The notes: generated by a model not told the origin, from the letters alone. Positions 9,191 to 40,804 are shown, counted from the stretch's first letter. The stretch is DNA of 64,000 nucleotides from a virus (IMGVR_UViG_3300021356_000014:1-64000); one strand, 5' to 3'. Program-made: numbers and translations.

Positions 9191-9200
9191 ATTATTTATT

Positions 9201-9293
9201 ATGCCTTATCAAAGCACAAAAAAGAAGAAGAAACGATGTACTACTAATAAAAACGGTACAAAAACTTGTAAAACTAAAACAAGAAAAAGATGA
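9201..9293 (+). CDS. Lys-rich mini-protein, 30 aa
   Basis: Product MPYQSTKKKKKRCTTNKNGTKTCKTKTRKR. It lies 10 bases after the 36-aa protein and is coupled by ATGA to the next gene. It shares high Lys/Thr content and two Cys with its neighbour, so the pair may be related. Function unknown; coding status rests on spacing and coupling. Confidence 0.45.
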   Translation: MPYQSTKKKKKRCTTNKNGTKTCKTKTRKR

Positions 9294-10007: not shown

Positions 10008-10028
10008 TAATATTATCAATGTTTAAGT

Positions 10029-10057
10029 AAAAGGTGGTCTAGTATTGGCCACCTTTT
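10029..10057 (+). terminator. intrinsic terminator before tape measure gene
   Basis: Stem AAAAGGTGGTC / GGCCACCTTTT with loop TAGTATT, ending in TTTTATT. It overlaps a possible upstream start (10045) of the tape measure frame and argues against that start. Confidence 0.75.
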
Positions 10058-10059
10058 AT

Positions 10060-10067
10060 TATATTTG
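10060..10067 (+). promoter_or_regulatory. -7 box TATATTTG before tape measure gene
   Basis: Perfect TAnnTTTG immediately after the terminator and 17 nt before the tape measure ATG, but no TTG at -33. It may be a weak or activator-dependent promoter. Confidence 0.35.
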
Positions 10068-10083
10068 GGTAAATTTATATATA

Positions 10084-19009: not shown

Positions 19010-19198
19010 ATGAAATATAATTTGTTAAAATCGCTATCAGATGAAACTAAACATGAACTTTTATTGTTATACGAAAATAACGATCTAAAAGAATTTCGAT
19101 TGAGGCTCTTTAAAATTAGGTTCTATGGTTGCACGTGTGCAGGAAAAAAAGAGCTAGAACGAGAATATAATTATATAAAAACACTTGTAGATGCCTAA
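19010..19198 (+). CDS. small hypothetical protein, 62 aa
   Basis: Charged helical protein with GCTCAGKKELEREYNYI; two Cys spaced CxC. Starts at the base after the tail tip stop and overlaps the following nuclease gene. Unknown function. Possibly travels with the nuclease. Confidence 0.5.
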   Translation: MKYNLLKSLSDETKHELLLLYENNDLKEFRLRLFKIRFYGCTCAGKKELEREYNYIKTLVDA

Positions 19199-20171
19199 AA
19201 AATTTACAACGGAAGAATGGATTGAGGCTTGTAGAGAAAAAAGGCCAGATTTTGAGGATTACGATTTTAGCAAGGTAGAATATATAAATGCTGATACAAA
19301 GGTTTTAATAATCCATAAGGATTTCCCTGAGCATCCATGGGAAGTAATACCTCCTAATTTTAAAGATAAGGGGCGGTCACATCCTATGATAAGTGGGACT
19401 TATAGATGGACAACTGAAGAATGGATTGAGGCTTGTAGAAAAAAAAGGCCAGATTTTTATGATTACGATTTTAGTAAGGTCGAATATGTGGATACTCGCA
19501 CAAAAGTATTAATAAAACATAAGGAGTTTCCTGAGTATAGATGGGAAGTAATGCCTAATTGTTTTAAAGATAGGGGAATATCACATCCTATGATAAGTGG
19601 GACTTATAGATGGACAACTGAAGAATGGATTCAGGATTGTAAAGCAAAAAGGCCAGATTTTGATGATTATATATTTGATTATGTTGAATACGTAGACTCA
19701 AGAACTAAAGTATTAATAAAGCATAAGGATTTTCCGCAAAATGATTGGTATGTATATCCTAAACAATTTAAAGATAGGGGAGACTCACATCCTTTGCTGT
19801 ATAAGCGAGGATATTCAAGAACTGATTTTAAAAATTATTGTATAAAAAACAATAAAGGTAAAGGATTCCTATACTTGATATATTTTATATGTAAAACATC
19901 TGGGGAAAAGTTCACTAAAATTGGAATCACGAGCAGGACTGTGAAAGAAAGATTTTGTGGTATGAAATATAATCATTTAAAAATTAAAAAAACTGTTTTG
20001 TTAGAGCAAGAGCCTGATTTGATATACGACCTAGAAAATGAAATACTAAGAGAATATAGACACTATAAATTCAATCCTACCATAACCTTTAAAGGGCAAA
20101 CCGAATGCTTCACCTCTGACGCATGGCCTATCATTTTAAAAGAAAAATTAGCAAAATACTTAATCACATAA
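19191..20171 (+). CDS. homing-type nuclease: DUF723-like repeats plus GIY-YIG-like (T5orf172/MUG113) domain
   Basis: Three tandem about 67-residue repeats, each TTEEWIEACR-KRPDF-DYDFSKVEYV--RTKVLIKHK-FP---W-V-P--FKDRG-SHP, resemble DNA-binding repeats of phage homing proteins. The C-terminal part (residues about 225-320) has GFLYLIYFICKTSGEKFTKIGITSRTVKERF, a GIY-YIG variant (YLI ... KIGIT ... R). It interrupts the tail and head modules, as mobile nucleases do. Catalytic Glu is likely among the ENEILREY residues. Confidence 0.7.
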   Translation: MPKKFTTEEWIEACREKRPDFEDYDFSKVEYINADTKVLIIHKDFPEHPWEVIPPNFKDKGRSHPMISGTYRWTTEEWIEACRKKRPDFYDYDFSKVEYVDTRTKVLIKHKEFPEYRWEVMPNCFKDRGISHPMISGTYRWTTEEWIQDCKAKRPDFDDYIFDYVEYVDSRTKVLIKHKDFPQNDWYVYPKQFKDRGDSHPLLYKRGYSRTDFKNYCIKNNKGKGFLYLIYFICKTSGEKFTKIGITSRTVKERFCGMKYNHLKIKKTVLLEQEPDLIYDLENEILREYRHYKFNPTITFKGQTECFTSDAWPIILKEKLAKYLIT

Positions 20172-23809: not shown

Positions 23810-25234
23810 ATGCTACAATTAACTAATCCGATTCCTGAGTCCATTAGAGATTCAAAGAAGTTGGGTATATTATTTAAGAAGTATAATATAATGCCATATT
23901 ATGGGACTACTGATGAGAGTAGTCACAGTATGTTGCGTTTATTATATGATGTGAGTTCGGTAAGTCAGAGTCATGTAGCTTGTAAATTAAATATAATAAG
24001 TTATGCATTTGGCGAGCAGTTGGATATAAAGCAGCCACATATTAGTGGCTTTTATGATACTGAGAATTTGGATAACAAGTTAGATCGTTCTACTAAGGTA
24101 TCATATATTGAGGCTTTGCGTGGGATGGGTTTGCGATTAACTGATATTATAAAGTACACTAAATCTGGGTATCATCATTATACTGATTCTGGGAATGCAT
24201 GGTTTATAGTACGTTTAGTTAAGGCGGGAGGAGAGAGTAAGGTATATATTGAGCCTGTTCATTACACTCAAGTTGCTTTATTGGTTCCTCGCAGTGGTTC
24301 TAACAATTTAAAGAATGCGATTGTAACGGAGTATTGGGATGAGGATTATTGGAGGCAGCGTAAGCCGAAGGTATATCCTGTTACTGATATGTTTGCTGAG
24401 GAGTGGAATTGGAGAGAGCGAGGGAATGGTACTATCTTTGAGACTATTGTACATATAAAGAATAATGCGGACAAGAGCAAGTTTTATGGTAGGCCAGATA
24501 CATTGAGTGTATTAAATTATATGTATAGTGAGTATGCGTTTAGTGATGTAAGTGCAAAGATAAGTGGTACTGAGTTTGTCACAAAGAAGGTATTAGCTTT
24601 TGAGGAGTTAGACCCAACACGTTATGATGGGGATGAGGAGGATAAGATTATGCAGCATCGTCGTCGTATGAATTCCTTGAGGGGATTAATGACAAGGGAG
24701 GGCGATCATTTGCAGGCTAAAAGTTTGGCGGGTATTGAGTATCCGTTTGGTCAGAAGCCTCCTATTGCTATTGATTTAGAATTGAATAGAGATTGGGCAT
24801 GGAAAGATAAAGAATTAGATAGAGCTAGTTCTTATATTTATGCTATGCATGGATGGGAGAAGCAGTTAACAGGAATGAAAGAAGTAAAGAGTAATACTGG
24901 TAGTAATATTGTTATTGACTTATTTAATATTAAGAATGTGACAACTATTACTCCTTTACAGAAATTTTGGGAAAATATATGGGGATGGATGTTAAATGAG
25001 ATAGGTAGTGTATTACTGCCTAGTCAAGAGATGTATAGCATTAAGTTTCAAGATAAGATTAAGGAGTTAGTAAATATGTTAGCATTGACTCAAGATGCTG
25101 ATGTAGTAGCTCAATTAAATTATAATTTGAAGAGTGGTGCGAGAGTTGATGTAAAGGATAGTAGTGCTGCTGCTAATAAAGACCTAATTAAGAACACCTT
25201 AAACGAAGATACTGATGCTGAAGCTGAAGAGTAG
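23810..25234 (+). CDS. portal protein, 474 aa
   Basis: The size and pattern fit a portal: a stem and wing with KFYGRPDTLSVLNYMYSEYAFSD (characteristic portal helix), TGMKEVKSNTGSN, and a C-terminal helix with LVNMLALTQDADVVAQLNYNLKSG. It forms the dodecameric ring at the head vertex. Here it lies after the capsid gene rather than after TerL, an unusual order. Confidence 0.75.
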   Translation: MLQLTNPIPESIRDSKKLGILFKKYNIMPYYGTTDESSHSMLRLLYDVSSVSQSHVACKLNIISYAFGEQLDIKQPHISGFYDTENLDNKLDRSTKVSYIEALRGMGLRLTDIIKYTKSGYHHYTDSGNAWFIVRLVKAGGESKVYIEPVHYTQVALLVPRSGSNNLKNAIVTEYWDEDYWRQRKPKVYPVTDMFAEEWNWRERGNGTIFETIVHIKNNADKSKFYGRPDTLSVLNYMYSEYAFSDVSAKISGTEFVTKKVLAFEELDPTRYDGDEEDKIMQHRRRMNSLRGLMTREGDHLQAKSLAGIEYPFGQKPPIAIDLELNRDWAWKDKELDRASSYIYAMHGWEKQLTGMKEVKSNTGSNIVIDLFNIKNVTTITPLQKFWENIWGWMLNEIGSVLLPSQEMYSIKFQDKIKELVNMLALTQDADVVAQLNYNLKSGARVDVKDSSAAANKDLIKNTLNEDTDAEAEE

Positions 25235-25970
25235 AACATTGTTGACCCCTGCTGAGGTGATATATTATGCGGGCTTAGGAGGCAGTTTTCCTAGACTTAC
25301 TATACGTAATATATTTACTATTGAGTATCAAGAGGCTAGGACTCTTATTGGAGAAATTTTCTATGCAGAATTGATTGCAGATTTAATAGAACATTCTGAT
25401 GTACGCAACTTTACAGAATTTGTTATTGAGAGTGATGGTACTACGAATTGGGAGGTAGGTGACAACTTTGTATATAATGGGATTCTTTATACAGTAAAAT
25501 TAAAGCCTGATTTTACGGATGACCAAATTCGTGCTTTTTATCATGGGCAGACTCCTGAGTTTTTAGTTGGTGAAGATAGTGGTATTTTTAAGTATGCAGA
25601 TAAATTTTCTACGGAAGCATTTAGTACACTTTGGTATGACTTTATGGCTGAATGGCTTTCATGGCAAGTTATTGCCAATTTACTTGGGGTTATGCATTCA
25701 CAAATTAGACCTGAGGGTATCGTTAAAAATTTAGGTAAGACTTACGAACACGCAAGCGATGATGAGTATCATATTTTACATAAAGCTTGTTTAGGTAATG
25801 CCGAGAGAGCTTATTTTAATATGAATCACTTTATACTAAGTAATAATACTGATGGGGTGTATGATAATTATAAACCAATTTTAGAAGATGGTCTATCATC
25901 TATTGATGACTTATCTACTATAAATGATAAAGTAAAAGGAGCAGGATATGGTCGATATTATTTTGGATAG
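25215..25970 (+). CDS. head-tail connector-like protein, 251 aa
   Basis: Follows the portal gene with a 20-bp overlap. Contains helical segments (FSTLWYDFMAEWLSWQVIANLLGV) like connector proteins of the HK97 gp6 / DUF6712 kind. Function inferred from order; the family is not certain. Confidence 0.5.
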   Translation: MLKLKSRTLLTPAEVIYYAGLGGSFPRLTIRNIFTIEYQEARTLIGEIFYAELIADLIEHSDVRNFTEFVIESDGTTNWEVGDNFVYNGILYTVKLKPDFTDDQIRAFYHGQTPEFLVGEDSGIFKYADKFSTEAFSTLWYDFMAEWLSWQVIANLLGVMHSQIRPEGIVKNLGKTYEHASDDEYHILHKACLGNAERAYFNMNHFILSNNTDGVYDNYKPILEDGLSSIDDLSTINDKVKGAGYGRYYFG

Positions 25971-26340
25971 TATTGAAAGATTCAAAAAGAATACGCTATT
26001 AAAGGCTGTATTTGCAGGCGTAGAACTCGCAAAAAGGGAGCATGGGGATGCTCGTGTTAAGGTATGTAGTGAGTGTCCGCTTGCAGGCAAAGTTGAGGTT
26101 ATGGGTATCAAGATGGATGGATGTACTGAGTGTGGTTGTCCATTTGCTACAAAGCCTTATATGCTAAATATGCCTCGGTTAAAAGATAAGATGGATGAGC
26201 CATTATCTTTTGACGAGCTAATCAAATTAAGAACCACCAAAGAGTCTGATGACTTTGAGATGGTAAAGATAACTTGTCCTCACCCGAATGGGAATAAATG
26301 GTCACAAGTTGATAACACTTTTTTAAATTTAAAAAAATAG
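25948..26340 (+). CDS. zinc-ribbon-like protein, 130 aa
   Basis: Cys pattern CSECPLAGKVEVMGIKMDGCTECGCPFATK gives CxxC and CxxCxC, a possible zinc ribbon, plus a late CPHPNG. Overlaps the connector gene. Small phage zinc-ribbon proteins of this type are common beside head genes in Bacteroidetes phages; function unknown. Confidence 0.6.
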   Translation: MVDIILDSIERFKKNTLLKAVFAGVELAKREHGDARVKVCSECPLAGKVEVMGIKMDGCTECGCPFATKPYMLNMPRLKDKMDEPLSFDELIKLRTTKESDDFEMVKITCPHPNGNKWSQVDNTFLNLKK

Positions 26341-26344
26341 TCAA

Positions 26345-27124
26345 ATGTTAATTAAAGACATTTCAAAATTCGGGTTATTTAGAGACAACCCTCATGCTGA
26401 TCCAATCAATAACTTAAAGTTCTCTACAAAATCTCAGGAGAGTGAAACGACAAGCGTAGGTCAAGATACTATTGTTTGTGCTGGTGCGGATAGTGATACA
26501 CTAGAATCTGTAACTTACACAAAAGAAGGTGTTGACTATGTTATGTATCCTGAGAATACTATCGTAGCTACTGATACGGATGCGGTATTTAATTTTATCT
26601 TCGAGAAGGTATTACGTATTTATGAAGTAGATGCTTACTTAGATGTTTCTTATGATGCAGCCTCTTCAGGTACAGTAACAGTAGTACATATTGGTGAAGG
26701 TTCAATTTCTGCTATCAAATTAGCAGGCGAAACTGAAGACACAGCTACTAGACTTACTACTGTAGAAACAGTTGCTACTTACCGTTTAGATGTTGCTTCT
26801 GTAGCAGCAACGGTAGATGCTTTCTCTGATGGTGTTGATTCAGTTGCAGTAGGGGTAGAAATTTCTGATATTACTGCGATTACTGCGGACAATGCGAGCG
26901 AAGCAGCGCAGTTAAAATCTGCTTTAGTTTCTACTTGCTTTGCTGGCTTAACGGATACAACGCTTGCAAATAGTGCAACTGTAGAGGTTACTCCTGACAT
27001 GGTTACAGGTCTTTATATCGTAAAAATCTCAGTTGCAGATACTTATGATAAGACTATGAGTTTGACATTAGGAGGTACAATCTACAATTTCGCTAAGGTA
27101 GCGTTCAGTAAAAGATTTGTATAA
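26345..27124 (+). CDS. Ala/Thr-rich structural protein, 259 aa
   Basis: Low complexity Ala, Thr, Val, Asp composition, all-beta, no Cys pattern, as in virion surface or decoration proteins. Closes the head gene block and is followed by a strong terminator. Not recognised. Confidence 0.5.
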   Translation: MLIKDISKFGLFRDNPHADPINNLKFSTKSQESETTSVGQDTIVCAGADSDTLESVTYTKEGVDYVMYPENTIVATDTDAVFNFIFEKVLRIYEVDAYLDVSYDAASSGTVTVVHIGEGSISAIKLAGETEDTATRLTTVETVATYRLDVASVAATVDAFSDGVDSVAVGVEISDITAITADNASEAAQLKSALVSTCFAGLTDTTLANSATVEVTPDMVTGLYIVKISVADTYDKTMSLTLGGTIYNFAKVAFSKRFV

Positions 27125-27148
27125 TCAATTCTCTCATTCTATAATTAT

Positions 27149-27183
27149 AAGGGAAGCTTATTAATTTAGGTTTCCCTTTTTTT
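27149..27183 (+). terminator. intrinsic terminator after head block
   Basis: AAGGGAA pairs with TTCCCTT across a 16-nt loop, followed by TTTTTT. It separates the head genes from the three exported fibre-like proteins. Confidence 0.8.
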
Positions 27184-27194
27184 AAATTTAAAAA

Positions 27195-28817
27195 ATGAAA
27201 CCATTATTTAATATAATAGCATTATTTCTTTTAATGCTATTCAGTAATAACATAATGTCTCAATCATACTCTTTATATTGTGTGGAAGACTATTTTGTTA
27301 ATGCTACTGAGTGCGACTTATGCGATGAGTATGGCTCTGGTAGGCAGTTTTTTAATGGTCTAGTACTAGATTCTAGGTCATCAGGTAAAGACATTTTAGT
27401 TCGTAGTCCTTACGATATTTTATTAAGAGGTAATACTGTTATCCTTAGAGATTGGACTATGAAAAAGGTTACTATTAATATGAGTAACATAAAAAACTTT
27501 TCAACACCTTTTAGCCTTCTCGGCTATTTAAAAGAGTGTAGCGGAGGTACAGGACAAGGCGGTGGAGGCTTATCGGACGGAGATTATGGAGACATGACAA
27601 TCTCAGGAGATGGTAAAATTATCACCTTAAAAAATGATATTGTTGGTGCGGATGAACTAGAAAATACTACGGTTGTAGCAGGAACTTACAATGTATCAAA
27701 TATAACTGTAGACGCTCAAGGTAGAATAACTAGTGCGAGTGCTGCTACCGCAGATTTGATACCCTTAGCTACACCTCTTTCAGGGAATAATAATGTAGAA
27801 TCCGCTTTAGTATATCTTGATAATAAACCTGCAGCAGATGGTTCTGAAACAAAAGTAAATGCAGGTACAAACGTAACTATAACTGGTTCGGGTACTATTG
27901 CTGACCCTTATGTGGTGAATGTTTCTTCAGGTACAGCTATAGTAGGTGATGGAGACTATGGGGATGTTGTAGTTTCTAGCGGTGGTTCTGTATGGACTGT
28001 TACTGGCGGCGGTGGTTCTGTTTGGACAAATTTAGATGGTACAGGAGCCACAACTTCTTCAACAGATATAAAATACAATGGCGGTCAAGTAGGAGTAGGG
28101 TTTGAAGACAGTGAAACTTTACCTAGTAGTAAGTCTTTAGCTGTAGAAGGGGATATGTCTATACAAAGAGAAAATGGAGCAGGTTTTACTTCTCTAACTG
28201 GATATGCAGATGATGGAACTACTGTTAATTGGCAAATTAACGATAAAAATTTAGCTATGAATTTAGGAGTTTCGGCAGGTTCTCAGGACTTAGTGATAAC
28301 TTCTTCGGGGAAAGTAATTATAAATGGTACAACTCCTATTGGTAGATTGTCCAGTCAACATGGTTCACAATGGCAATTGGCATTACAAGATGATGCCAAC
28401 AAATCTACATTAGTAAGACATGAAGATAATGGATTAACTAGAATAGCATTTACAGATGATGGAGGTTCTACAACAAAAGATTTGTTTTGGAGAGGAAACG
28501 GAAATGATATATCTACTACTAATTCTTTAACAGGAGTCGTTGGGCATATTAACTCAATTGTAAAATTGACAGATAATATTGATGATGATACTAAAGTAGC
28601 ATATACTATACCAGTTGTTTCATATAAACATACTGCTAGTATCTTTTTCATTTGCGATTCTTCAAGTGAAAATGACGGAGGTGATGGATGTGCAGTAGAA
28701 ACTGCAAATGCTGTTTTAATAAATGGATCATCTAATTTTATTCTTCCAGAGCTAGGTAAAGTATATGAATTAAGATACTCAGAAGATTTAGGAGAATGGT
28801 TTATAATGAATCTTTAA
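27195..28817 (+). CDS. tail-fibre-like protein with Sec signal peptide, 540 aa
   Basis: The first 23 residues form a signal peptide (MKPLF, hydrophobic core, NNIMS then QSYS), so cleavage would leave Gln at +1. A Cys-rich segment (CDLC) follows. From about 115 the protein is tail-fibre-like: GGTGQGGGG linker, SGDGKIITLKNDIVG, and NITVDAQGRITSAS motifs typical of phage fibres, then a beta-rich C-terminus with VYELRYSEDLGEWF. A signal peptide on a fibre is unusual: the protein may be exported to the cell surface rather than packaged, or use the hydrophobic N-terminus as an anchor. Confidence 0.75.
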   Translation: MKPLFNIIALFLLMLFSNNIMSQSYSLYCVEDYFVNATECDLCDEYGSGRQFFNGLVLDSRSSGKDILVRSPYDILLRGNTVILRDWTMKKVTINMSNIKNFSTPFSLLGYLKECSGGTGQGGGGLSDGDYGDMTISGDGKIITLKNDIVGADELENTTVVAGTYNVSNITVDAQGRITSASAATADLIPLATPLSGNNNVESALVYLDNKPAADGSETKVNAGTNVTITGSGTIADPYVVNVSSGTAIVGDGDYGDVVVSSGGSVWTVTGGGGSVWTNLDGTGATTSSTDIKYNGGQVGVGFEDSETLPSSKSLAVEGDMSIQRENGAGFTSLTGYADDGTTVNWQINDKNLAMNLGVSAGSQDLVITSSGKVIINGTTPIGRLSSQHGSQWQLALQDDANKSTLVRHEDNGLTRIAFTDDGGSTTKDLFWRGNGNDISTTNSLTGVVGHINSIVKLTDNIDDDTKVAYTIPVVSYKHTASIFFICDSSSENDGGDGCAVETANAVLINGSSNFILPELGKVYELRYSEDLGEWFIMNL

Positions 28818-28830
28818 AAATAAAAATACA

Positions 28831-31800
28831 ATGAAAAATAACTTATTAACAATATTTTTAACAATTATATGTATTGCAGCTTATTCTCAAAGCTACAATT
28901 CTTTAGATGAATTGTTAGAAGCTGATTATTTACCTATTAATAGGATTGTATCTGTTAAAGATGGAGAAAATAGTGCAGATTTTAAAATAGAAAAAGGACA
29001 AGGAGATAATATAACTTCTTTTAGCATCACAGCTTCAAAAAAAGCAGTTTTAATTGGAGATATTTCTTTGGTAAATTTATCTTTTATAGGTGTAAAGTAT
29101 GGGGAAGGATTAAGTAAAGCTGAGATGCAAAGCAATTGGGCAATTTTAAAATCTTTTGTTTACAATTATTCTGATACTCTAAACTTAACTGATGACTTAC
29201 ACATATGGGTTGAGGGAGATGATGCTCTTACTGTAGAAAAGGATTTAACTATAAAAGGTAATAAAAATACTTTATACATACATCCAAGGAAAAAGGGATT
29301 TAGAGGTACAAGAAAAGTATTTAGACATACTTTTGGAAACATTAATATAGATGATTTATATCTAAAAGGTTATTCCGATAGATGGTTATTAGAAACTTAT
29401 GAAGTAACATTTAAGCCTTCAGGAGATCAAGACGCAGTTTTATTATCAGGAAGTCAATCTAGTGGTTTTTGGAGTAATTTAAGCACAGGCGATACTATTG
29501 CTTTTCAAGTAGATGATGCTACAGCAGGAAATGTATTTATTGTTTCAGCATTTGACGAGCCTAGTAAGACCATAAGTTTTACAAGTAATTTTGGAACAGC
29601 AGATGATTATACTGTAAGTGGGCAATCTTATATAGGTGTTAGGTTTGAAGAAAATGCAAATAGTTCAGATATACAGACCTATGGTAAATCATGGAATGTT
29701 CAGGATAATGAAGCAAGTGCTTTATATGAGGAACTTATTTTTATTTCTTCTTTAAATACAGACACTACTGCTGCTGTTTTACAAGATAATTATAAAGAGT
29801 TTACTTTTAACAATTGTGACTTTGAAGGAATGGACTTTAATCTTAGATTGTCTGGAACATGGTTAAATGTATATAGTAATAATGTAAAAGAACAGGCTAA
29901 TGCCATTAGCAATAGTTGGGTAGGAGGTTTAGCAAATAAATTATCTAAAGTTGTAAAAAATCAAGGTGAAGTATATGATTGTGGTACTGTATGTGAAGCT
30001 AGTGTAAATGACAATGGAGTAGTTTCTACAAATGCAATATTTGGAGGGGGTTATTATTTACACCCTGCATTTGTACCTAATTTTAATGGTGTATTATTCC
30101 GTGACAATAACACAACTTCATATAGAAATTTCAGTAGCTCAGGTAATGATATAACAGGAGAAGGATGGATAGGATCATTTGAAAATTGTATTTGGCAATC
30201 TAATAACTTTGAGCCTTTATTGATTACATCTAAAAGCTGGCCTACACAAATAATCAATTGTACGTTTAATGCTCCATATGACGGAGGTCAGACTACAATT
30301 CAATTAGGAAATTCTACTTCAATGATAGGATGTATAGTAGATGCTCCTATTTATTTAGGTTTAAATAGTGAGCCTTCTAATGAAGTAGATGACAGATATT
30401 TTTTAAATTTTGAAGATTGTGTTTTCTATCAAAATGCAAGAATAGATTTATCTCAATGGCCTAGTGCTACTGAATCAAAAGCTACTTTTACTTTTAATAA
30501 CTCGACGTTTTTTCCATCTAACAATAATGCAGACTTTACAATAAAATATTCTACTGGAAATTTATTAATTAACGATTGTTTTATAGATAGAATGAATGAA
30601 GATGCGAATGGTACAATTTATAATTCTAGTACAAACTTAAACGCATTTATACAACTTGATGAGGGGGCAAGTGATTCTAATCCATTTGGTACTGTTAGTA
30701 TAGATAATTTAAGAACTTTAAAAGATTTTTCTAATAATGATATGCCTATTATTAAAGGATATGATGAAAACAGTAGTACAGCAACTACAGCAGATGTATC
30801 TGGTTATGTCTTTAATATAAATGTTGTTGGTGAAAGTGGATTTACACAAGAAAATTTAAGCTCTGTCATTAATTCTAGCGGCGGCGGTGGTTCTTACCTT
30901 GTAAATAGTGAATATCCTGCTGATATGGATTCAACTTTAGTGTTTAACACAACAGCTTCAGATGCTACTGTAACTTGTGCTGATTGTGCTTTTTCTGCTT
31001 CAGATGTGGGTAAGTTAATACAAATAAATGGTGCAGGTCGGAGAATAATGGATGGTGATAATAGAGATTACATGGATGGTGATGAGCTTATTACTACTAT
31101 TTTTTCTGTAACTAGTGCTACTGAGATTGAAGTCACTGACGCACCTACTGTTACTGTATCAAATACTACAGGATATTGGGGTACAGATATGTCGCCAATT
31201 ATTAACCAATTAATTACTGATGGTCAAAAAGAAATTGTTTTTAAAGCAGAAGGTAATGGGTGGATATTTGGTCAAAGGTTAGATGCAAACCAACAAAACA
31301 ATTCCTGTATTTTAGTTAATCAAAATAACGTTACTATCAAGGGTATTGGTCTACCTAGACTAAATTGGGTGTCAACAAACCCAAATAGTTATATAACAAC
31401 TAATCTTGATGATGCTGCTGAAACAGCAAATGGTGTTAGTGATAAAACTCCTTTTGATATTCATTTGATTTATGTTGATGAATCTGATAACTTTATACTA
31501 GATGGAGTTTTAGGTTATAATATTGGACAAGATGAAAGTAGAGTAGATGCCGACCAAGAAGGTGGTAACTGGTCTAATACAACATATAATGCCGATCAAG
31601 AATTAAATAACACTGTAGTACCTTATGCTAGATGGGAAAATAAACAAGCAAATAGTGGTGCTGTAGTAAGATACAGAGGTTACTGTGTAGGAGGTGAAGT
31701 GAGGAATAATACATCTTATCGTACAGGTTTTTTTGTAAGAGTAGATAAAGGTGCAACTGATAATGATGTTAGTTACGGTTTAAAAATTTACAATAATAGG

Positions 31801-33444
31801 GTGAATGGTTATGGTAGCACCGCTGTAAGTACTGGTGAACAAACATATGTGTATAATAATATATTTGACAACTCAGACGCGGCATGGATAAATTCTGATG
31901 ATAGAAGCAATTCTGGAGCAGAATATGATAGATTTGGTACATCACATGCAATTTATGCTTATAGTGGACATAGATCAGGGCATTGGTATAATAATGAATT
32001 TATTGAAATTAAAGGTACAGTTTTACAATGGAATACCAGTTCAAGCATTAATACTGAACAAAGCTTGTATCATATTTACGGTAACTCATTTTACGATTGT
32101 GCAGAAGTAGTTACTGCTTTAGGTAATTCTAGGGATAAAATTTACTTTAGAGATAATCAGATACAAGACAGTAAGCCATTTAATATCAATTCAAACGACG
32201 CTATAGTTTATATGTCAGGTAACGTCTGGAGAGGCTATAATTCAAATATACTAACGGACGGTACAACAAATGTTGAAACTGCATTTGGATTAAGTTTGGA
32301 AGCTTTTGATTCACTATTTATAGACGGAGATAAGTTTTATGATTTTAATCTATCAACAACTGCACCTGCTATTAGACTAGGTACTAATTCAGCTACTACA
32401 GGCAGTAGTGTTTTATCTATTACCAATTGTTATTTTGATAAGACAAACTTAGTAGCATTAGATGTTACTGGAACTATTGCGCCAAAAGGTAATGTTAAGT
32501 TTTCTGGCAATATTGTAAATTGTGGTATTAGAATATTACAAAATCGTACAGGATTAGATGCAAGAAATGTAATTGTTAGTAATAATGAGTTTTCTATATC
32601 TAGTGGAGATCAATCTATTTCTATAGCAAATCCAATTACATTTATAAACAATACAATAGATAAGGTTAATCCTTTTGATATACCTGTTTATGCTGATGCA
32701 ACTGCTAGAGATGCTGCAATACCTTCACCTGCCTTAGGAGATTATGCGTATGTTGTGGATGTTAATCAAACACAAGAATATAATGGTAGTGCTTGGGTAG
32801 TGAGTTTTGTAACTCAGTTTTATCCTATGGTTCCGCAAGTTTTAGAAACAGCAGCAGCGAAGATGAATTTTGTTGATAATGTGTTTGTTAACAGCACTTA
32901 TAATAGAACTTATTTTAGCTTAAATGTAGGTACACTTGATGAAGATGCTCTAGAGTTTCATGGCAATACGTTTTTATCTCAAAATATGAGCAAAAGCATA
33001 AATCCATTCTTTACATTTTGGAGAGGTGGGTTAAGTTTAAATAATGAAGCATTGCTTGGACAAGTTGTTAGCGCGACTGATAATAAATTCATCTACCCTA
33101 ACGATGATGCTGAATATTTTGCTTATAGTGATGATAATGGTAAACCGACCTTCTCATCCCTACAAACATCTGATTTCACAGTAGCAATAGATGAATATAA
33201 CTTAGTTGACCCTAATGGTGGAGCAATCACAGCTACAGTTCCTTCAGGTGTTACACAAGTGGGAACGGAATTTTGGGTAGTAGATTCAGAAGGTACAGCA
33301 AGTGGTACAAATACTATTACAGTTGATTTCTCGACTAATGGTTATACAGTAAGTGGGCAGAATACAGCAGTCATTAATGATGCAGGAGATGGATTCAAAT
33401 TTATCTACATCGGTTCTAATAAATGGATTTCAGAAAGACTATAA
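28831..33444 (+). CDS. giant beta-helix protein with Sec signal peptide, 1537 aa
   Basis: Signal peptide of 19 residues ending AAYS before QSYNS. The body is right-handed beta-helix-like with many Asn-rich coil turns (FENCIWQSNNF, INCTFN, FEDCVFYQNA), as in pectate-lyase-like depolymerases. A SGGGGS linker near residue 681 joins two halves; the second half (from about 690) is paralogous to the next protein, sharing ASDVGKLI-I-GAG, SVTSATEIE and GTSHAIY ... QWNT motifs. Likely binds or degrades surface polysaccharide; export is predicted. Confidence 0.75.
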   Translation: MKNNLLTIFLTIICIAAYSQSYNSLDELLEADYLPINRIVSVKDGENSADFKIEKGQGDNITSFSITASKKAVLIGDISLVNLSFIGVKYGEGLSKAEMQSNWAILKSFVYNYSDTLNLTDDLHIWVEGDDALTVEKDLTIKGNKNTLYIHPRKKGFRGTRKVFRHTFGNINIDDLYLKGYSDRWLLETYEVTFKPSGDQDAVLLSGSQSSGFWSNLSTGDTIAFQVDDATAGNVFIVSAFDEPSKTISFTSNFGTADDYTVSGQSYIGVRFEENANSSDIQTYGKSWNVQDNEASALYEELIFISSLNTDTTAAVLQDNYKEFTFNNCDFEGMDFNLRLSGTWLNVYSNNVKEQANAISNSWVGGLANKLSKVVKNQGEVYDCGTVCEASVNDNGVVSTNAIFGGGYYLHPAFVPNFNGVLFRDNNTTSYRNFSSSGNDITGEGWIGSFENCIWQSNNFEPLLITSKSWPTQIINCTFNAPYDGGQTTIQLGNSTSMIGCIVDAPIYLGLNSEPSNEVDDRYFLNFEDCVFYQNARIDLSQWPSATESKATFTFNNSTFFPSNNNADFTIKYSTGNLLINDCFIDRMNEDANGTIYNSSTNLNAFIQLDEGASDSNPFGTVSIDNLRTLKDFSNNDMPIIKGYDENSSTATTADVSGYVFNINVVGESGFTQENLSSVINSSGGGGSYLVNSEYPADMDSTLVFNTTASDATVTCADCAFSASDVGKLIQINGAGRRIMDGDNRDYMDGDELITTIFSVTSATEIEVTDAPTVTVSNTTGYWGTDMSPIINQLITDGQKEIVFKAEGNGWIFGQRLDANQQNNSCILVNQNNVTIKGIGLPRLNWVSTNPNSYITTNLDDAAETANGVSDKTPFDIHLIYVDESDNFILDGVLGYNIGQDESRVDADQEGGNWSNTTYNADQELNNTVVPYARWENKQANSGAVVRYRGYCVGGEVRNNTSYRTGFFVRVDKGATDNDVSYGLKIYNNRVNGYGSTAVSTGEQTYVYNNIFDNSDAAWINSDDRSNSGAEYDRFGTSHAIYAYSGHRSGHWYNNEFIEIKGTVLQWNTSSSINTEQSLYHIYGNSFYDCAEVVTALGNSRDKIYFRDNQIQDSKPFNINSNDAIVYMSGNVWRGYNSNILTDGTTNVETAFGLSLEAFDSLFIDGDKFYDFNLSTTAPAIRLGTNSATTGSSVLSITNCYFDKTNLVALDVTGTIAPKGNVKFSGNIVNCGIRILQNRTGLDARNVIVSNNEFSISSGDQSISIANPITFINNTIDKVNPFDIPVYADATARDAAIPSPALGDYAYVVDVNQTQEYNGSAWVVSFVTQFYPMVPQVLETAAAKMNFVDNVFVNSTYNRTYFSLNVGTLDEDALEFHGNTFLSQNMSKSINPFFTFWRGGLSLNNEALLGQVVSATDNKFIYPNDDAEYFAYSDDNGKPTFSSLQTSDFTVAIDEYNLVDPNGGAITATVPSGVTQVGTEFWVVDSEGTASGTNTITVDFSTNGYTVSGQNTAVINDAGDGFKFIYIGSNKWISERL

Positions 33445-33455
33445 AAAATAAAACA

Positions 33456-36176
33456 ATGAAAAAAATATATTTAACATTGATGCTACTAATATCGGTAGCA
33501 TCATTATTTGGGCAAAGGTTTAGTAGTCCTTTATTAATTAGTAATTTAAAGTCTGATGTTGTGCAAAAATCGGATTTTACAATAACTGGGACTACTACAT
33601 TAACTTCTGCTAGTTCAACTTTTACTTCTAGTGATGTTGGTAAGACTATAAGTATATATGGAGCAGGTGATTTAGGTGCTGAACATATTACTACAATTGC
33701 ATCTGTTACAAGTGCTACAGAGGTAGAGCTGACTAGTGCTGCTAGTATAAATGTAACAAGTGCTGACGGTTTTTATGCAACAAATAATTCTCCTTTGCTA
33801 GATGCTGCTATTGAAGAAAACAAAAATATAACAGTAAGTAAAGGTACATATTACTTTGCTGATGAAATAGCAAAAAATGATGTAGATAATTTCTCAATAG
33901 ATTTTCAAGGTTCGACAATTTACTTTAACACCTTCTTCAATTCAAGTTGGGGAGAAGGGTCTAATGATAATTTAGAGCCAAACATATTTGATTTACAAAA
34001 TTGTGATAATGTAAGTTTTGAGAATGTAACAGCAGAGTTTTTAGGTCAAACATTTGCTTTAAATGATACTGTTTCGTATTCTTCAGAATTTTCTACAACT
34101 ACTGTAAGTAGTACAGAAGTTACTGTAACAAGCGCAACAAATGTATTTACAGCAAGTGATGTAAATAAAATTATTAGACTACAAGGTGCAGGTAGTCAAT
34201 ATTACTATTTTTATATTTCAGAGTTTGTCTCTTCAAGTGAGGTAAGCATAAAAGATGGCGGTGGTTTTGATAACCCTAATTTAGGAACCTTACAAACAAC
34301 TCTTACAAATGTAGATGGTAAGATATTCAGCGAGGATGGATATACAGGAATACTACAAGGTCAAGCTTATGATCGAAGATATAACAAACGAGGTAATACA
34401 GGTAATTTTGTTGCTTTAAATACAAGTACTAACATTAATCTTACTAATGTAAAAACGATAGGATTAGGTCAATTGTTAGGTATAACAGGAGGTAATAATT
34501 CTAAGCTAAACATTTTTAATTGTGAGGTTGATGGTTATGGAAGTGTAGCTATTTCCCCGTGCGATTATACAACAATAAGAAATTGTATTATAGATAACCA
34601 AGAAGCACAAGCTATTACAGCAATAGATCAAGGGCAAAACTTAGGTACTTCACATGCTATCTATACTACACAAGCTTATGAAAATGTAATCATAGACAAT
34701 AATGATTTAACATATATCCGAGGTGTTGCAATACAGTGGAACACAGGAAGCTCAGGTAAAAGTAAAGGGCATTTTGTGACTAACAATTACATGTTTGAAG
34801 CACAAAGAGCAGGGACTATTCAGGGGTCTGCTGAATGGCAAGTGACCTTTGAAAATAATATTTGGGAAAATTGTGGTCAATGGTCTGTAAACTCAACTAA
34901 TAGTAAAGTTTATATAAAATCAGACACATATAAAGGTGAACCAACTGAGCAAACAGATTATTTAGGTGCATGGGGTATTGTCAATGCTGACTATTTTGAA
35001 ATGAAAAACTCAACATTAAATGCGGTTTTTACAGGTGTTACTGGTACTGATGTTAGTGCATTATCATTTTCTATGCAATCATCTAGTGCAGTTAGAGATA
35101 TAGACGTAAATATCGACAACAATATATTTGTCAATAATACAAATGATTTACAATTTATAAATGAACAATTCGCATTGACAGCAGGTAATGAGATTAAAAT
35201 AACTAGAAATGAATTCTTAGGAAATGTGTATCTAGTTAAAAGTAGCTCTGGTACATACCGTCAGGCAGATTTAGAAGAGTATATTTTATTTGAGAATAAC
35301 AACTTCTACGGTACTACATTTATCAGGATGGGAGCTAGTTTCTTGTATAATAACTTTACTAAAATTGGTGATTCTGATTTAGCATTAGATATTGATATGT
35401 TGTCAGATGCAGGTGCGAGTGGTGAAAGAAATTTAGTTTTAAATCATAATACTTTTGAAAGAATTAATGGTACAGATTCAGACATAGTAGAGTTAAGTGC
35501 TGCGAGTGATTTAAGGGTTGTGTTTGACAATAATAAAGGCTTAAATCAATCTACACAAGTACAATTAAATGGAGGTTCTTTCATAAGTAGAAAAGGACTA
35601 CATCAAACTAATAGTGATAACTATTTTATAAAATCAAATAGCAATAGTATTTGGACATTAGAAAGTCCATCTTTGGCACATATTAATTTTAAACATGAAG
35701 ATGCTAATCAGTGGAAAATAGGCACAGAAGATGGCGGACTTTTGGACGATAAGTTTATTATAGCATACTCTGGTAATTCATCTTTATCTAGTGGTGTTAG
35801 AATGACTATATCAACTGGAGGAAATGTTGGCATTGGTACTGATAGAGCCGTAGATGCTAGTGAAAAACTTGAAGTGCAAGGTAATATAAAGTTAAATGAT
35901 GAAGGGGGTACAGTTAGATCGGACTTGATTGGTAATGCTGATAACAGGGGAACTGTAACAATAACAGAAGCAAAAACTGGAAGTTATACTTTTAATGTTT
36001 CAAAGTCAGATGGCAACTATATTGTTGCTACCTCAGTAGAGATAGTGTCTGGTACTCCGAGTTCGGATGAACTTATAGTTACTGTTGAAAAAACAACAAA
36101 TAGTATTACTTTTACACTTTTTGAAGGTTTAGATGTAGGAGAAGCCGTAAACATAAACTGGATATTAGTACAGTAA
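33456..36176 (+). CDS. beta-helix protein with Sec signal peptide and fibre-like C-terminus, 906 aa
   Basis: Start at 33456 (MKKIYLTLMLL...) rather than the in-frame ATG 33 bases upstream inside the previous gene. The signal peptide ends SLFG before QRFSS. Central beta-helix with the DYTTIRNCIIDNQ and GTSHAIYTTQAYENVIIDNNDL motifs shared with the preceding protein. C-terminal GGNVGIGTDRAVDASEKLEVQGNIKLND is a motif of phage tail fibres and Bacteroidetes surface proteins, followed by a small beta domain. Likely polysaccharide-active or receptor-binding. Confidence 0.75.
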   Translation: MKKIYLTLMLLISVASLFGQRFSSPLLISNLKSDVVQKSDFTITGTTTLTSASSTFTSSDVGKTISIYGAGDLGAEHITTIASVTSATEVELTSAASINVTSADGFYATNNSPLLDAAIEENKNITVSKGTYYFADEIAKNDVDNFSIDFQGSTIYFNTFFNSSWGEGSNDNLEPNIFDLQNCDNVSFENVTAEFLGQTFALNDTVSYSSEFSTTTVSSTEVTVTSATNVFTASDVNKIIRLQGAGSQYYYFYISEFVSSSEVSIKDGGGFDNPNLGTLQTTLTNVDGKIFSEDGYTGILQGQAYDRRYNKRGNTGNFVALNTSTNINLTNVKTIGLGQLLGITGGNNSKLNIFNCEVDGYGSVAISPCDYTTIRNCIIDNQEAQAITAIDQGQNLGTSHAIYTTQAYENVIIDNNDLTYIRGVAIQWNTGSSGKSKGHFVTNNYMFEAQRAGTIQGSAEWQVTFENNIWENCGQWSVNSTNSKVYIKSDTYKGEPTEQTDYLGAWGIVNADYFEMKNSTLNAVFTGVTGTDVSALSFSMQSSSAVRDIDVNIDNNIFVNNTNDLQFINEQFALTAGNEIKITRNEFLGNVYLVKSSSGTYRQADLEEYILFENNNFYGTTFIRMGASFLYNNFTKIGDSDLALDIDMLSDAGASGERNLVLNHNTFERINGTDSDIVELSAASDLRVVFDNNKGLNQSTQVQLNGGSFISRKGLHQTNSDNYFIKSNSNSIWTLESPSLAHINFKHEDANQWKIGTEDGGLLDDKFIIAYSGNSSLSSGVRMTISTGGNVGIGTDRAVDASEKLEVQGNIKLNDEGGTVRSDLIGNADNRGTVTITEAKTGSYTFNVSKSDGNYIVATSVEIVSGTPSSDELIVTVEKTTNSITFTLFEGLDVGEAVNINWILVQ

Positions 36177-36189
36177 AATAAACAGCAGA

Positions 36190-36470
36190 TAACTAGAGTA
36201 TTGCACGCATAGTTCGCTATGCTCGCTATGAACGCTCAGTTCGCTATGCCTGCTATGCTTGCCTTGCTCTAGTTGCGTTAAGCGTTATAGCGTTGCGTTT
36301 CTTGATGAAGCGTTGCGTTATAGCGTTGCGTTTAGGATGCGTTTAGGATGCGTTAACTAATTAATACTGAGGGGATTGTGATAGCGTTTAAGTTGCGTTT
36401 TATTGCGTGCAACTATAACGCAAAAAATATTTTATAAATTTTAGCGTTAGCGTATAGCGTTATTAAATTA
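36190..36470. repeat. degenerate word-repeat region (GCTATG and AGCGTTGCGTT)
   Basis: About 290 bp without a gene. The first part repeats TTCGCTATG, CTCGCTATG, CTGCTATGCTTGC; the second repeats AGCGTTGCGTT, TTAGGATGCGTT and TAGCGTT many times. The reverse complement of the second word is AACGCT, the same word that is dense inside several genes. Confidence 0.8.
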
Positions 36471-36476
36471 TTGACA

Positions 36477-37481
36477 ATGGTACACATTACAGCTAGTGTT
36501 GATGACACTATGTTCAAGAAGGATGGTTATTCATATGCTAAGAATACTTATGAGATATTTTATGAAGAGCCTTCTGGTGAAGACCCTAACTCTAATGCTT
36601 TATTGCGTATTGGTCTTAGGGATAAAATTAGTAAGGAAATTTTTGTTCCTGCAATTCCTATCAGTGAATATACTAGTGATGGTATAAATCCTATTGCGGA
36701 TTATGATACTTTGATGCAGTTATTTGCTACTCATTTAGGTTTTAATTTGGCAGGCTCGGCTGCCTTACAAACGGCTCAAGATGCGGCTACGGCTGCTTCC
36801 GCTGCGGATGTTAAGGCATTAGCAGCTCAGACAGGTTACTCTCATACGGGAGCATTTGCGGACAAACCCTTATCTAATAATTATGTATGGGAAGCAGGTG
36901 CGGGCATAAATTATACATCTGAAGATGTTAGTAATGGTACATGGAAGGTATTATCCTTGAGTAAATCAGTACATGATGCGGTGGATAATCCTTATTGGAC
37001 TACTCCGACCCCGACAGGTAATGTAGGTGTAGGCTTATTTCAAGGGGCTAACCTACCAAATGGTGTATTGACATTAGTAGATTATGAGTATTCTTATGAT
37101 TTGCAGTATCCTAGTTCTACAGGTACAGGCTATGAGGGTAGTACTGGTAGAATTAGATTAAATGATTGCGTTTATGGCGACCAATTAAGGGTGCGTTTTG
37201 ATTTTGAGATTATACCACAGATAGCCAATACTACTGTAGAGCCTGCTATTTGGTATAGCAATAGAGATGACTCAAATAATATCACATTCACATTTCCTCT
37301 AACAGCTCAACCTATTTTTTATGGTGGAGGAACTGTGGCAAATACATATCTTAACAGGGTAGAAATTTCTGCTTGGATTACTAGTAATGAAGATGTAAAT
37401 GCGCTTGCATTGCCAGCAATTAAGGCAGATAATCCTATAATAGTAAGACCTTTAGGTATATTAATAACAATTTTAAGATAA
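36477..37481 (+). CDS. virion appendage protein, 334 aa
   Basis: The N-terminal part has an Ala-rich linker (AATAASAADVKALAAQ) and tail-fibre-like GAFADKPLSNNYVWEAGAG, and the C-terminal 150 residues read as a beta-sandwich (GTGYEGSTGRIRLNDCVYGDQLRVRFDFEI). No signal peptide, unlike its three upstream neighbours. Probably a fibre or receptor-binding part. ATG at 36477 is preferred over the TTG six bases earlier. Confidence 0.55.
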   Translation: MVHITASVDDTMFKKDGYSYAKNTYEIFYEEPSGEDPNSNALLRIGLRDKISKEIFVPAIPISEYTSDGINPIADYDTLMQLFATHLGFNLAGSAALQTAQDAATAASAADVKALAAQTGYSHTGAFADKPLSNNYVWEAGAGINYTSEDVSNGTWKVLSLSKSVHDAVDNPYWTTPTPTGNVGVGLFQGANLPNGVLTLVDYEYSYDLQYPSSTGTGYEGSTGRIRLNDCVYGDQLRVRFDFEIIPQIANTTVEPAIWYSNRDDSNNITFTFPLTAQPIFYGGGTVANTYLNRVEISAWITSNEDVNALALPAIKADNPIIVRPLGILITILR

Positions 37482-37486: not shown

Positions 37487-39082
37487 ATGGCTATAAAGAT
37501 TGTAAGAAATGAGGCAGGTAATTGTGTGACCTTTCAAGGGTCAAGTAATCCTGTTTATTGGAACTCCTGTTTATCAGGTGAAGTAGACCCTTCAAACCCA
37601 CAATTAATAAATATAAAAAATGATATAAGAAGTATTAATGAACAAAATACTATTTATGAGTTTTATAATATACCTTACACAGAATTTACTGACTCAGAGG
37701 GTAATAGTTTTGCAACACCTCAAGAGTGTGCGACTTATATAACTAATGAATGTAATGTATTAGGGAATACAGGACAACAAGTAGCATCCGATACAGATAC
37801 TTTTGATTTTTATTTAGATCAAAAGGATAATACTGTAATAATGAATACAGGTGATTACTTTCCTGTAAACACTATACAAGCAGTATTAGAATCATCTACT
37901 TTAAGCATAACATCTATAGTAGGTTCTAAAATTTACTATTCAAATATAAATTTAAGCAATGTTTCAATATTAGGTACAGAAATTACTGGAACTGATACAG
38001 AAAAGATAAACTCGCTAAACGCTCTATTTCAAAACACTGGAACATCAACAAGTAATATCCCTGCTATAACGAGTTCGTTGGCCATCTCTTTGACGCAGGG
38101 AGAAACATTGAATTATGAATTGATAGCTAACTTCGGAGTAGGCTATGAGTGGGATTTATCAAACGTTAGTGGTGTTACGACAGTAGAGGGGAATATACGT
38201 AAGTTAATAGGCGGTTCTTCATTAGCAGTTGGTACTTATAACATACCAGTTAAAGCGATCAATTATAATGGTCAGGATAGCCAAACTATTGTACTTACAG
38301 TTTCTACACCTCCTTTTTCTAATACTAAAAGTGTTAATTTATCAAACCAAGATTGGTTAGGTGCTAATGCAGCTTTATTAGATAGCACTTTAGGTAGGAC
38401 AAATAATGGTAGCGGCTCAGGAGATGCATGGACTATAGCTTTTTATTTCAAAGGAAGTAGCGACACAAGTAACGGACAGACTATTTTTTACTTTGGCGAT
38501 AATGACACAAATAATGGAGGTCATATGTATATACGTTATCAAGGAGGTAACAACCGTTTTCGATTTAGGTATGGATCGGATAACAACCACTTAAATTTTC
38601 ATTCGCCAGACAACTCAATATTAGATAACATTTGGTATCATATTATGATTGCATATGATGGAGGAACAACTGGTGCGAGTAGTGGAGATATTAACAGCTA
38701 TTACAGTAGATTCAGTATATTTATTGACGGAGTTGACGTTACATCAAATGGTAGCTGGTCGGAAAGTAATTATGGTTGGTCTAGTGGTATAGATGCTGAC
38801 AATATAAGAGTTGGTAGATATGGGTCATCACAATATATGCAAGGAGGTTGCAAGATAGACGAACTAGCAATTTGGGACAGCGATCAAAGCGCAAATGTTT
38901 CAGACATTTACAATAGCGGTGTTCCTTTTGATTTATCTACATTGACAACACAGCCAAAACATTGGTGGCGTATGGGGGATGGCGATACGTATCCCTATCT
39001 ACAAGACAACGGAACAGAAGCAAATTGCATATTTCAAATGTACAATATGACATCAGCAGATATTGTTAGTGATGTACCTTAA
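37487..39082 (+). CDS. lectin-like (LamG/ConA) virion protein, 531 aa
   Basis: N-terminal unknown domain, an Ig/cadherin-like segment around 195-275 (SLAISLTQGETLNYELIANFGVGYEWDLS ... YNIPVKAINYNGQDSQTIVLTV), then a concanavalin-like domain (about 280-510) with DAWTIAFYFKGS, NIWYHIMIAYDGG, FSIFIDGVDVTSNG, CKIDELAIWDSDQ and HWWRMGDGDTYPYLQDN, the classic LamG layout. Likely binds host glycans at adsorption. Five bases from the previous stop. No signal peptide. Confidence 0.7.
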   Translation: MAIKIVRNEAGNCVTFQGSSNPVYWNSCLSGEVDPSNPQLINIKNDIRSINEQNTIYEFYNIPYTEFTDSEGNSFATPQECATYITNECNVLGNTGQQVASDTDTFDFYLDQKDNTVIMNTGDYFPVNTIQAVLESSTLSITSIVGSKIYYSNINLSNVSILGTEITGTDTEKINSLNALFQNTGTSTSNIPAITSSLAISLTQGETLNYELIANFGVGYEWDLSNVSGVTTVEGNIRKLIGGSSLAVGTYNIPVKAINYNGQDSQTIVLTVSTPPFSNTKSVNLSNQDWLGANAALLDSTLGRTNNGSGSGDAWTIAFYFKGSSDTSNGQTIFYFGDNDTNNGGHMYIRYQGGNNRFRFRYGSDNNHLNFHSPDNSILDNIWYHIMIAYDGGTTGASSGDINSYYSRFSIFIDGVDVTSNGSWSESNYGWSSGIDADNIRVGRYGSSQYMQGGCKIDELAIWDSDQSANVSDIYNSGVPFDLSTLTTQPKHWWRMGDGDTYPYLQDNGTEANCIFQMYNMTSADIVSDVP

Positions 39083-39168: not shown

Positions 39169-39417
39169 ATGACCTCTATATTATTTAAGTATATTCAGTC
39201 ACATCCTATATTAGTGAGTGCGTCATCTGCTACAACTGGGTACGTGTTATCTATTGTCGAAGTATCAGAGTTAGTAGCAGCAATTTTCAGAACTACTGGT
39301 GTTATATGTGCAGCTTTTTTATCTGCCTTAACACTAGTAGTATATTTTAATAACAATTTTTATTTTGTAAATAAGTTTCCATTTATAAAAGTTAAAAAAG
39401 ATGAAGAGAAAGTTTGA
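39169..39417 (+). CDS. small membrane protein, holin candidate, 82 aa
   Basis: Hydrophobic segments around residues 14-33 and 38-60 with a basic tail (KVKKDEEKV). Topology and size suit a class II holin. Its end overlaps the protease gene. It lies near the end of the late operon with another small membrane protein (40829-41017) two genes on. Confidence 0.55.
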   Translation: MTSILFKYIQSHPILVSASSATTGYVLSIVEVSELVAAIFRTTGVICAAFLSALTLVVYFNNNFYFVNKFPFIKVKKDEEKV

Positions 39418-40804
39418 TATTCAGTTGCCCGCACTTGCCCCCGAAAAGGTGTTTAGTTCGCTATCACAGATTGATGATTGGAATTACCAGTATGTAGGCA
39501 CAAAAAAATATACAAATAAGATTGATAATCGGTGTATTGTATTTGTGTTGGATACTGCGGGCGTATTCGATCATCCAGATTTGGTTGCAAATTCATATTC
39601 AAGATATGATAAGAACTTTAGTTCCTCAAATGTATCTGAGGACTTACAAGGGCATGGCACTCATTGCGCAGGAATTGTAGCGGCTTCCAACAATGAATTT
39701 GGGACAATCGGTATCAACTCTGATACTATTGTTGTAGCAATAAAGGTACTAAATGATTTTGGGAGTGGCTCGATGGATGATGTTGCTGAAGGTATTAGAT
39801 ATGTTGCTGACTTACAGTTAGATGATGCGCATAAAGGATTTAAGAAGATTATCAGCATGAGCTTAGGCTCATCTAGTGCTTCACCTAAAGTAGAATCAGC
39901 CTTGAAGTACGCAAAATCTAAAGGTGTTATCTCGTTTGCTGCTGCGGGCAATGCAGGCAAAGGCTCGCAAGATACGGTAGCTTATCCTGCTAAGTATGAT
40001 GGACTTTGTATTTCAGTTGCTAGTCTTGATAAAGGAGATAAATCTGCAAGCTATAGCTCGCAAGGAGATTCTGTTGATATTTCTACAGGAGGTAGCAGAA
40101 TCTACTCTACCTACAAAAATAAATCTTATGCTAGATTATCAGGAACCTCGATGGCTTGTCCCGCAGTTGCAGGCTTGGCTGCGTTAATTGTGTCATACTT
40201 CCCAGAAGTTACATGGAATCAGGTCTCAATGGAAACATTTTTGAAAGAGAATGCAAAGGATTTAGGTACGAAAGGTATTGACCCTATCTTTGGGGCAGGC
40301 TCAATTTTAGCGGATAACTATTTGAAGGAAGCCCCAAAAAATGACTTTAAGCCTTTACCTCAAAATCGCTATTCTCCTTTTGACCCTGCTGTAGGTATTA
40401 AAACAGTAAATGTGATTTTTGATGTGGAAACTTCGATCATGTCTAGGGAGATTGCAGTAAAAGAAGGTAATTATAAATTGCCTTTTGAGGACTTTAGAGG
40501 GCGTAAGGTAACTATTTCTATTGATTGTGATATAGATGTATCTCGAAATGCAAATTATAGCTTAGAGGTCATTAAAAACCTCTCTCAAGCGTATGCTAAT
40601 TTAGCTTCTGGTATTTATATTGGAGAGTTAGATGCAAAGATGTTAGCAGATTTTGAGGACTCCGATTATACTGTACATATATGTGATGGCTATTCTAGTT
40701 TTGTAGATATTGCATATAAAATATCTGATATTCTAAAAATGAACAAAGCAATCAAAATATTAGGTATCACCTTTGATTTTGATGATTTTGTAATAAATAT
40801 TTAA
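39401..40804 (+). CDS. subtilisin-like serine peptidase (S8), 467 aa
   Basis: Full catalytic set: Asp51 in VFVLDTAG, His85 in GHGTHCAG, oxyanion Asn184 in AAAGNAG and Ser250 in SGTSMACPA. C-terminal 150 residues form a separate domain (KTVNVIFDVETSIMSREIAVKEGNY...). No signal peptide or propeptide, so it acts in the cytoplasm or inside the virion. Possible roles are maturation of virion proteins, or a host-directed protease. S8 peptidases are uncommon in phage late operons. Confidence 0.9.
   Translation: MKRKFDIQLPALAPEKVFSSLSQIDDWNYQYVGTKKYTNKIDNRCIVFVLDTAGVFDHPDLVANSYSRYDKNFSSSNVSEDLQGHGTHCAGIVAASNNEFGTIGINSDTIVVAIKVLNDFGSGSMDDVAEGIRYVADLQLDDAHKGFKKIISMSLGSSSASPKVESALKYAKSKGVISFAAAGNAGKGSQDTVAYPAKYDGLCISVASLDKGDKSASYSSQGDSVDISTGGSRIYSTYKNKSYARLSGTSMACPAVAGLAALIVSYFPEVTWNQVSMETFLKENAKDLGTKGIDPIFGAGSILADNYLKEAPKNDFKPLPQNRYSPFDPAVGIKTVNVIFDVETSIMSREIAVKEGNYKLPFEDFRGRKVTISIDCDIDVSRNANYSLEVIKNLSQAYANLASGIYIGELDAKMLADFEDSDYTVHICDGYSSFVDIAYKISDILKMNKAIKILGITFDFDDFVINI

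Follow-up and report, generated by a model that had tools for sequence, protein, structure and literature searches.

In the 64,000-nucleotide stretch of viral DNA analyzed here (IMGVR_UViG_3300021356_000014:1-64000; the window), which makes up nearly all of a 66.6-kb virus record and contains a tailed-phage structural gene set, three consecutive genes on the + strand encode large fibre-like proteins with predicted Sec signal peptides, and we propose that they form a receptor-binding spike cassette whose products are probably exported before they join the virion. The open reading frames (ORFs) specify protein 1 (540 residues; 27195-28817), the first gene product of the cassette and a probable adaptor or fibre, protein 2 (1537 residues; 28831-33444), which is spike-like, and protein 3 (906 residues; 33456-36176), a pectate-lyase-like spike. 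A rule-based Sec predictor, which scores a basic n-region, a hydrophobic core, and the -3/-1 rule, placed the signal peptides at 27195-27260 (cleavage MS|QSYS), 28831-28887 (YS|QSYN), and 33456-33512 (FG|QRFS), all on the + strand, and the respective N-termini are MKPLFNIIALFLLMLFSNNIMS|QSYS, MKNNLLTIFLTIICIAAYS|QSYN, and MKKIYLTLMLLISVASLFG|QRFS. The longest ORF of gene 3 starts at 33423, but its signal peptide begins at the ATG at 33456.

A Sec signal, small residues at -3 and -1, and Gln at +1 were therefore found in all three proteins, as in host proteins of the Bacteroidetes that follow the Q-rule, in which cleavage by signal peptidase I exposes Gln (PMC5837995). The predictor flagged seven of the 69 predicted window genes, and +1 was Gln in exactly proteins 1-3; another of the seven, at 2119, has a signal-like N-terminus that appears by eye to be of the lipoprotein type. 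When residues 2-41 of all genes were shuffled, a mean of 0.06 Q-rule hits per genome was obtained (maximum of 2 in 300 trials), and internal 40-mers yielded 2 hits among 4840. These results bear out the claim of an earlier note on this DNA that the three proteins carry Sec signals with Gln after the cleavage site. None of the three has a lipobox with Cys at +1, the mark of signal peptidase II substrates. Type IX secretion was also considered and rejected, as a Pfam scan of the three proteins gave no C-terminal sorting domain.

Sequence comparison identifies the bodies of the cassette proteins as probable tail-fibre or tailspike material. Protein 3 has a hit to phrog_32881, annotated 'pectin lyase activity' (E=1.4e-10), and proteins 2 and 3 are homologous (25.6% identity across 484 residues, E=1e-31). 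Residues 139-202 of protein 1 (27609-27800, + strand) constitute a tail-fibre-type repeat segment, found as a tblastn match to the Synechococcus phages S-RIP2 and S-RIP1; the match to a large tail-region protein of cyanophage S-RIP2 has E=2e-4. The cassette lies beside tail genes, proteins 1 and 3 show body exchange, and the bodies are probably of fibre or beta-helix type, a fold deduced from these matches. Searches of IMG/VR, phages, and the PDB with proteins 2 and 3 gave no substantial match beyond a single close relative in IMG/VR, IMGVR_UViG_3300017783_000010, whose portal-like protein is 97% identical to that of the window phage.

We compared the cassette with that of this relative. The protein 1 signal and its +1 Gln are kept (MKQLFNISALFLLMLFSNNIMS|QSYS), and the first ∼273 residues of the protein are conserved, after which a different spike-like sequence takes the place of the body. 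Similarly, the start of gene 3 is identical at 71 of 72 nucleotides, with the sole mismatch outside the signal, which is itself identical; beyond these 72 nucleotides, the two sequences are unrelated. The comparison of protein 1 and gene 3 therefore shows a stable signal joined to a body that is exchanged. In the relative, the gene 3 signal is followed, in another frame, by a LamG-like fragment (2455-2962 of the relative's stretch), apparently a recent deletion or remnant. The last 97 residues of protein 2 (residues 1441-1537; 33151-33441, + strand) form a conserved C-terminal fibre module that is 88% identical within an 813-residue frame of the relative, whose contig stops within the cassette; proteins 1 and 2 may be a single protein there.

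Cassettes of the same architecture are present in cultured Bacteroidota phages, which were picked by accession and then extended by following homologs; positives reached through homology are thus non-independent samples. Among the 12 phages picked by accession alone, three carry a cassette. In phi19:1, phi10:1, phi39:1, phi18:3, phi46:3, phi19:3, phi13:2, Nekkels, and Ingeline, two to five consecutive genes in fibre position encode Sec signals, nearly all of them obeying the Q-rule. The records of four Cellulophaga phages carry tandem mass spectrometry (MS/MS) proteomics notes for cassette proteins (phi19:1 gp101-104, phi10:1 gp091-094, phi39:1 gp25 and gp26, and phi18:3 gp085-087), and all 13 of these recorded virion proteins have a signal peptide, 12 of them with Gln at +1. 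In phi19:1, phi10:1, and phi39:1, no other virion protein with such a note was flagged as signal-bearing. Across all cassettes, the window included, 16 of 17 distinct signals have Gln at +1; for Porphyromonas hosts, Q-values of ∼60-77% have been reported (PMC5837995). All large proteins encoded after the tail genes of phi10:1 and phi39:1 bear a signal, and these phages therefore have no obvious other receptor-binding protein. The cassette was absent from the stretches read of Cellulophaga phages phi38:1, phi18:1, and phi12:1, Flavobacterium phages 11b and FCL-2, Bacteroides phage B124-14, Croceibacter phage P2559S, Nonlabens phage P12024L, and Riemerella phage RAP44, and the trait is therefore common but not universal. 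The fibre proteins of Klebsiella phage KP32, cyanophage S-RIP2, and Staphylococcus phage SA12 had no such signals. Separately, at 6923-10014 of Maribacter phage Colly_1, away from the structural genes, a protein annotated as 'tail fiber' has an N-terminal signal of the lipoprotein type (LVG|CSIDKD), and the protein after it belongs to the OmpA family and carries a Q-rule signal.

Judged from sequence, the signal and the start of the mature protein together act like a docking module that moves between proteins and to which swapped bodies would be attached. In phi10:1 gp094, conservation is limited to residues 1-42 (the signal plus 23 residues; 88-93%), and this segment recurs in phi13:2, Nekkels, and phi18:3 on spikes whose bodies differ. 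Members of the 'pectate lyase' family are nearly invariant over their first ∼95 residues and diverge thereafter. The reverse arrangement is seen in Nekkels gp55 and phi39:1 gp26, whose bodies are 66% identical from residue 42/60 on and whose signal and docking segments differ. A 4.6-kb block encoding gp102-104 has 96.9% DNA identity between phi19:1 (Assiduviridae) and phi19:3 (Pachyviridae), which share a host strain. In the first cassette gene, the N-terminal part is more variable and the later part is shared. This pattern of conserved and swapped modules would fit spikes that dock by their mature N-termini and a first protein that serves as adaptor.

Because non-cytoplasmic proteins of Bacteroidota are O-glycosylated at D-S/T-(A/I/L/V/M/T), where almost every site is occupied (PMC12871550), spikes with functional signals would meet the O-glycosylation machinery. 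We therefore counted the sequon D[ST][AILVMT] in mature proteins and in local shuffles of them, with duplicate segments masked in the main test. Signal-peptide fibres contained 26 sequons compared with 73.9 +/- 8.2 expected (0 of 1000 shuffles), and window proteins 1-3 alone contained 6 compared with 15.9 expected (4 of 2000 shuffles); residual family relatedness makes these significance figures approximate. Fibres of Bacteroidota phages without signals were not depleted (57 sequons, 57.7 expected), including a 1587-residue spike of the close relative (6 sequons, 6.0 expected), and neither were non-Bacteroidota fibres (30 sequons, 30.2 expected). Neither the reversed motif nor E/K/N/G[ST]x was depleted. 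At the third position, depletion concerns L, V, A, I, T, and S, the residues that the glycosylation system prefers, whereas D, E, Y, and R were undepleted. Phage phi38:1 gp101 (24423-29498), a 1691-residue structural protein with no detectable signal peptide, has no sequons compared with 5.4 expected, unlike the other non-signal fibres. We know of no cytoplasmic cause for the depletion pattern. Its confinement to signal-bearing fibres lends second, independent support, at the level of sequence, to export in infected cells, which the earlier note had also put forward.

Overall, we consider it probable that proteins 1-3 are receptor-binding spikes that leave the cytoplasm through Sec and are joined to virions only afterwards, probably at lysis. 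The precursors would pass through Sec, and cleavage by signal peptidase I of the host would leave an N-terminal Gln, which is expected to cyclise to pyroglutamate. The exported spikes would then fold in the periplasm, and their mature N-terminal segments would dock onto tails, most likely as virions leave the cytoplasm at lysis. By analogy with the Cellulophaga phages, the window proteins would be present in virions, and we infer that docking takes place outside the cytoplasm.

Several observations weigh against this proposal. No tailed phage is known to attach its fibres outside the cytoplasm. The window proteins have no detectable sequence homology to the Cellulophaga cassettes, and they are linked by architecture, position, and type of signal. 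For MS/MS, the evidence consists of notes in GenBank records rather than peptides or purification details, and an exported protein could therefore have co-purified with membrane debris; co-purification with virions is a possible explanation and the main alternative to docking. The window phage also has signal-less fibre-like proteins that could serve as receptor-binding proteins, and the AlphaFold2 models of proteins 1 and 3 (predicted local distance difference test scores of 32 and 37) were unusable for fold search. Finally, cysteine content is not enriched (0.54 versus 0.56 per 100 residues), and disulfide formation is therefore no obvious reason for export; disulfide-driven export was dropped for this reason.

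The earlier note had set export against a place in the virion and had suggested that the proteins may act as polysaccharide depolymerases, surface modifiers, or blockers of superinfection; on this reading, they would remain in the envelope of infected cells or in the medium. The signals and sequon avoidance would suit such proteins, as would the other, signal-less fibres of the window phage, and envelope modification has been proposed for Q-rule genes of Porphyromonas gingivalis phages (PMC10367356). However, counterparts with the same architecture are recorded as MS/MS virion proteins in four cultured phages, phi10:1 and phi39:1 would be left without an obvious other receptor-binding protein, and the variable N-terminal part and shared C-terminal part of the first cassette protein are expected if it docks to different tails. 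We therefore regard a non-virion fate as unlikely. A depolymerase role is still plausible, but for a virion-borne spike, and we found no evidence of superinfection blocking. Both MS/MS detection and sequon avoidance would be accounted for by a dual fate, in which a fraction escapes Sec and assembles in the cytoplasm and the exported fraction acts as a secreted depolymerase. That the near-ideal signals and the +1 Gln are strongly conserved across divergent cassettes suggests instead that export is the main route, and a dual fate is improbable. It is highly improbable that the hydrophobic N-termini anchor the fibres to the virion rather than direct export: this would agree with the occurrence of cassette proteins with virions, but not with the retention of the +1 Gln and small -3/-1 residues in 16 of the 17 distinct signals, nor with a sequon depletion that only signal-bearing fibres show and that nothing in the cytoplasm would bring about. 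The signal calls were made with a rule-based predictor and not with SignalP, which leaves room for chance or misannotated N-termini, but the null rates and the conservation in relatives refute this in practice and reduce its probability to almost nothing. Sec export followed by docking onto virions thus remains the reading that we favor.

Parts of this arrangement have precedents. The cassettes of Cellulophaga phages phi19:1, phi10:1, phi39:1, and phi18:3, Nekkels, and Ingeline resemble that of the window in their consecutive large fibre or pectate-lyase-type genes in fibre position, in a Sec signal on every product, almost always with +1 Gln, in their modular bodies, and in sequon avoidance, but their sequences are not detectably homologous to it. 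Modular tailspike depolymerases, such as gp37 and gp38 of Klebsiella phage KP32, have a conserved N-terminal docking part and exchangeable bodies, as the cassette spikes do, but these virion proteins have neither a signal peptide nor sequon depletion. Signals in the lyase proteins of the flavophages Nekkels and Ingeline are mentioned in one sentence of PMC8776804, and neither the Q-rule nor virions are discussed with them in the available part of that paper. The P. gingivalis phage genes likewise encode signal peptidase I substrates with +1 Gln, but these genes are of unknown function, and in the part of PMC10367356 consulted they are not linked to virions. In non-cytoplasmic host proteins of Bacteroidota, O-glycosylation sequons are enriched (PMC12871550), whereas they are depleted in spikes of the window type. 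Searches of the open-licence literature gave no report tying signals to virion proteins or describing sequon avoidance, and the virion link, the docking module, and sequon avoidance appear to be new.

Downstream of the cassette, on the + strand, lie genes for a fibre-like protein of 334 residues (334/336; 36477-37481), 89% identical in the relative, and a LamG-type lectin protein of 531 residues (37487-39082; Pfam Laminin_G_3, E=1.7e-9). Both lack signal peptides, as the earlier note had observed, and the N-terminus of protein 1 showed no homology to these neighboring non-signal fibres. The interval at 36177-36470, between the cassette and the first of these genes, is non-coding and contains many degenerate GCGTTATAGCGTTGCGTT-type repeats, partly conserved in the relative (2963-3245 of its stretch); it may be a site of recombination or regulation. 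Further along, a subtilisin-like protease gene without a signal peptide (39401-40804; Peptidase_S8, E=1.9e-43) directly follows a small holin-like gene and is kept in the relative.

Elsewhere in the window, genes named from reading of the sequence include those for a terminase (5612-6862), a tape measure protein (10045-14709), and a probable capsid and a probable portal protein (at 21820 and 23810, respectively). GC content is 33%, and a Shine-Dalgarno-like leader precedes only 1 of 48 window genes, the leaders being A-rich; such scarcity is usual for Bacteroidota. Together with the Q-rule and sequon avoidance, these sequence features fit a Bacteroidota host. Scans of bacterial genomes and a phage collection gave no close relative of the window phage, and the bacterial-genome scan gave no relatives of its terminase or of a Cellulophaga fibre; matches to its DNA polymerase are scattered over many hosts, all below 30% identity, and are uninformative on the host. 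A thymidylate synthase gene (62216-63604) contains an in-frame insertion of ∼190 residues between its N- and C-terminal parts, which Pfam matches as two separate stretches; the insert is possibly intein-like or derived from a homing endonuclease. The product of another gene (19191-20171) has three tandem repeats of ∼55 residues (TTEEWIEAC...), not alike in the window phage and the relative, and by eye a C-terminal GIY-YIG/T5orf172-like part.

Whether there is a widespread group of Bacteroidota phages whose spikes are exported by Sec, start with pyroglutamate, are kept free of sequons by selection, and are attached periplasmically at lysis is, in our judgment, evenly balanced. Textbook accounts place the assembly of tailed phages entirely in the cytoplasm; if our proposal is correct, it would in these cases be split between two compartments, and host-range proteins would encounter periplasmic proteases, glutaminyl cyclase, and general O-glycosylation. 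Spikes made recombinantly in the Escherichia coli cytoplasm may then deviate from their natural form, and sequon avoidance would offer a simple sequence signature for spotting exported phage proteins.

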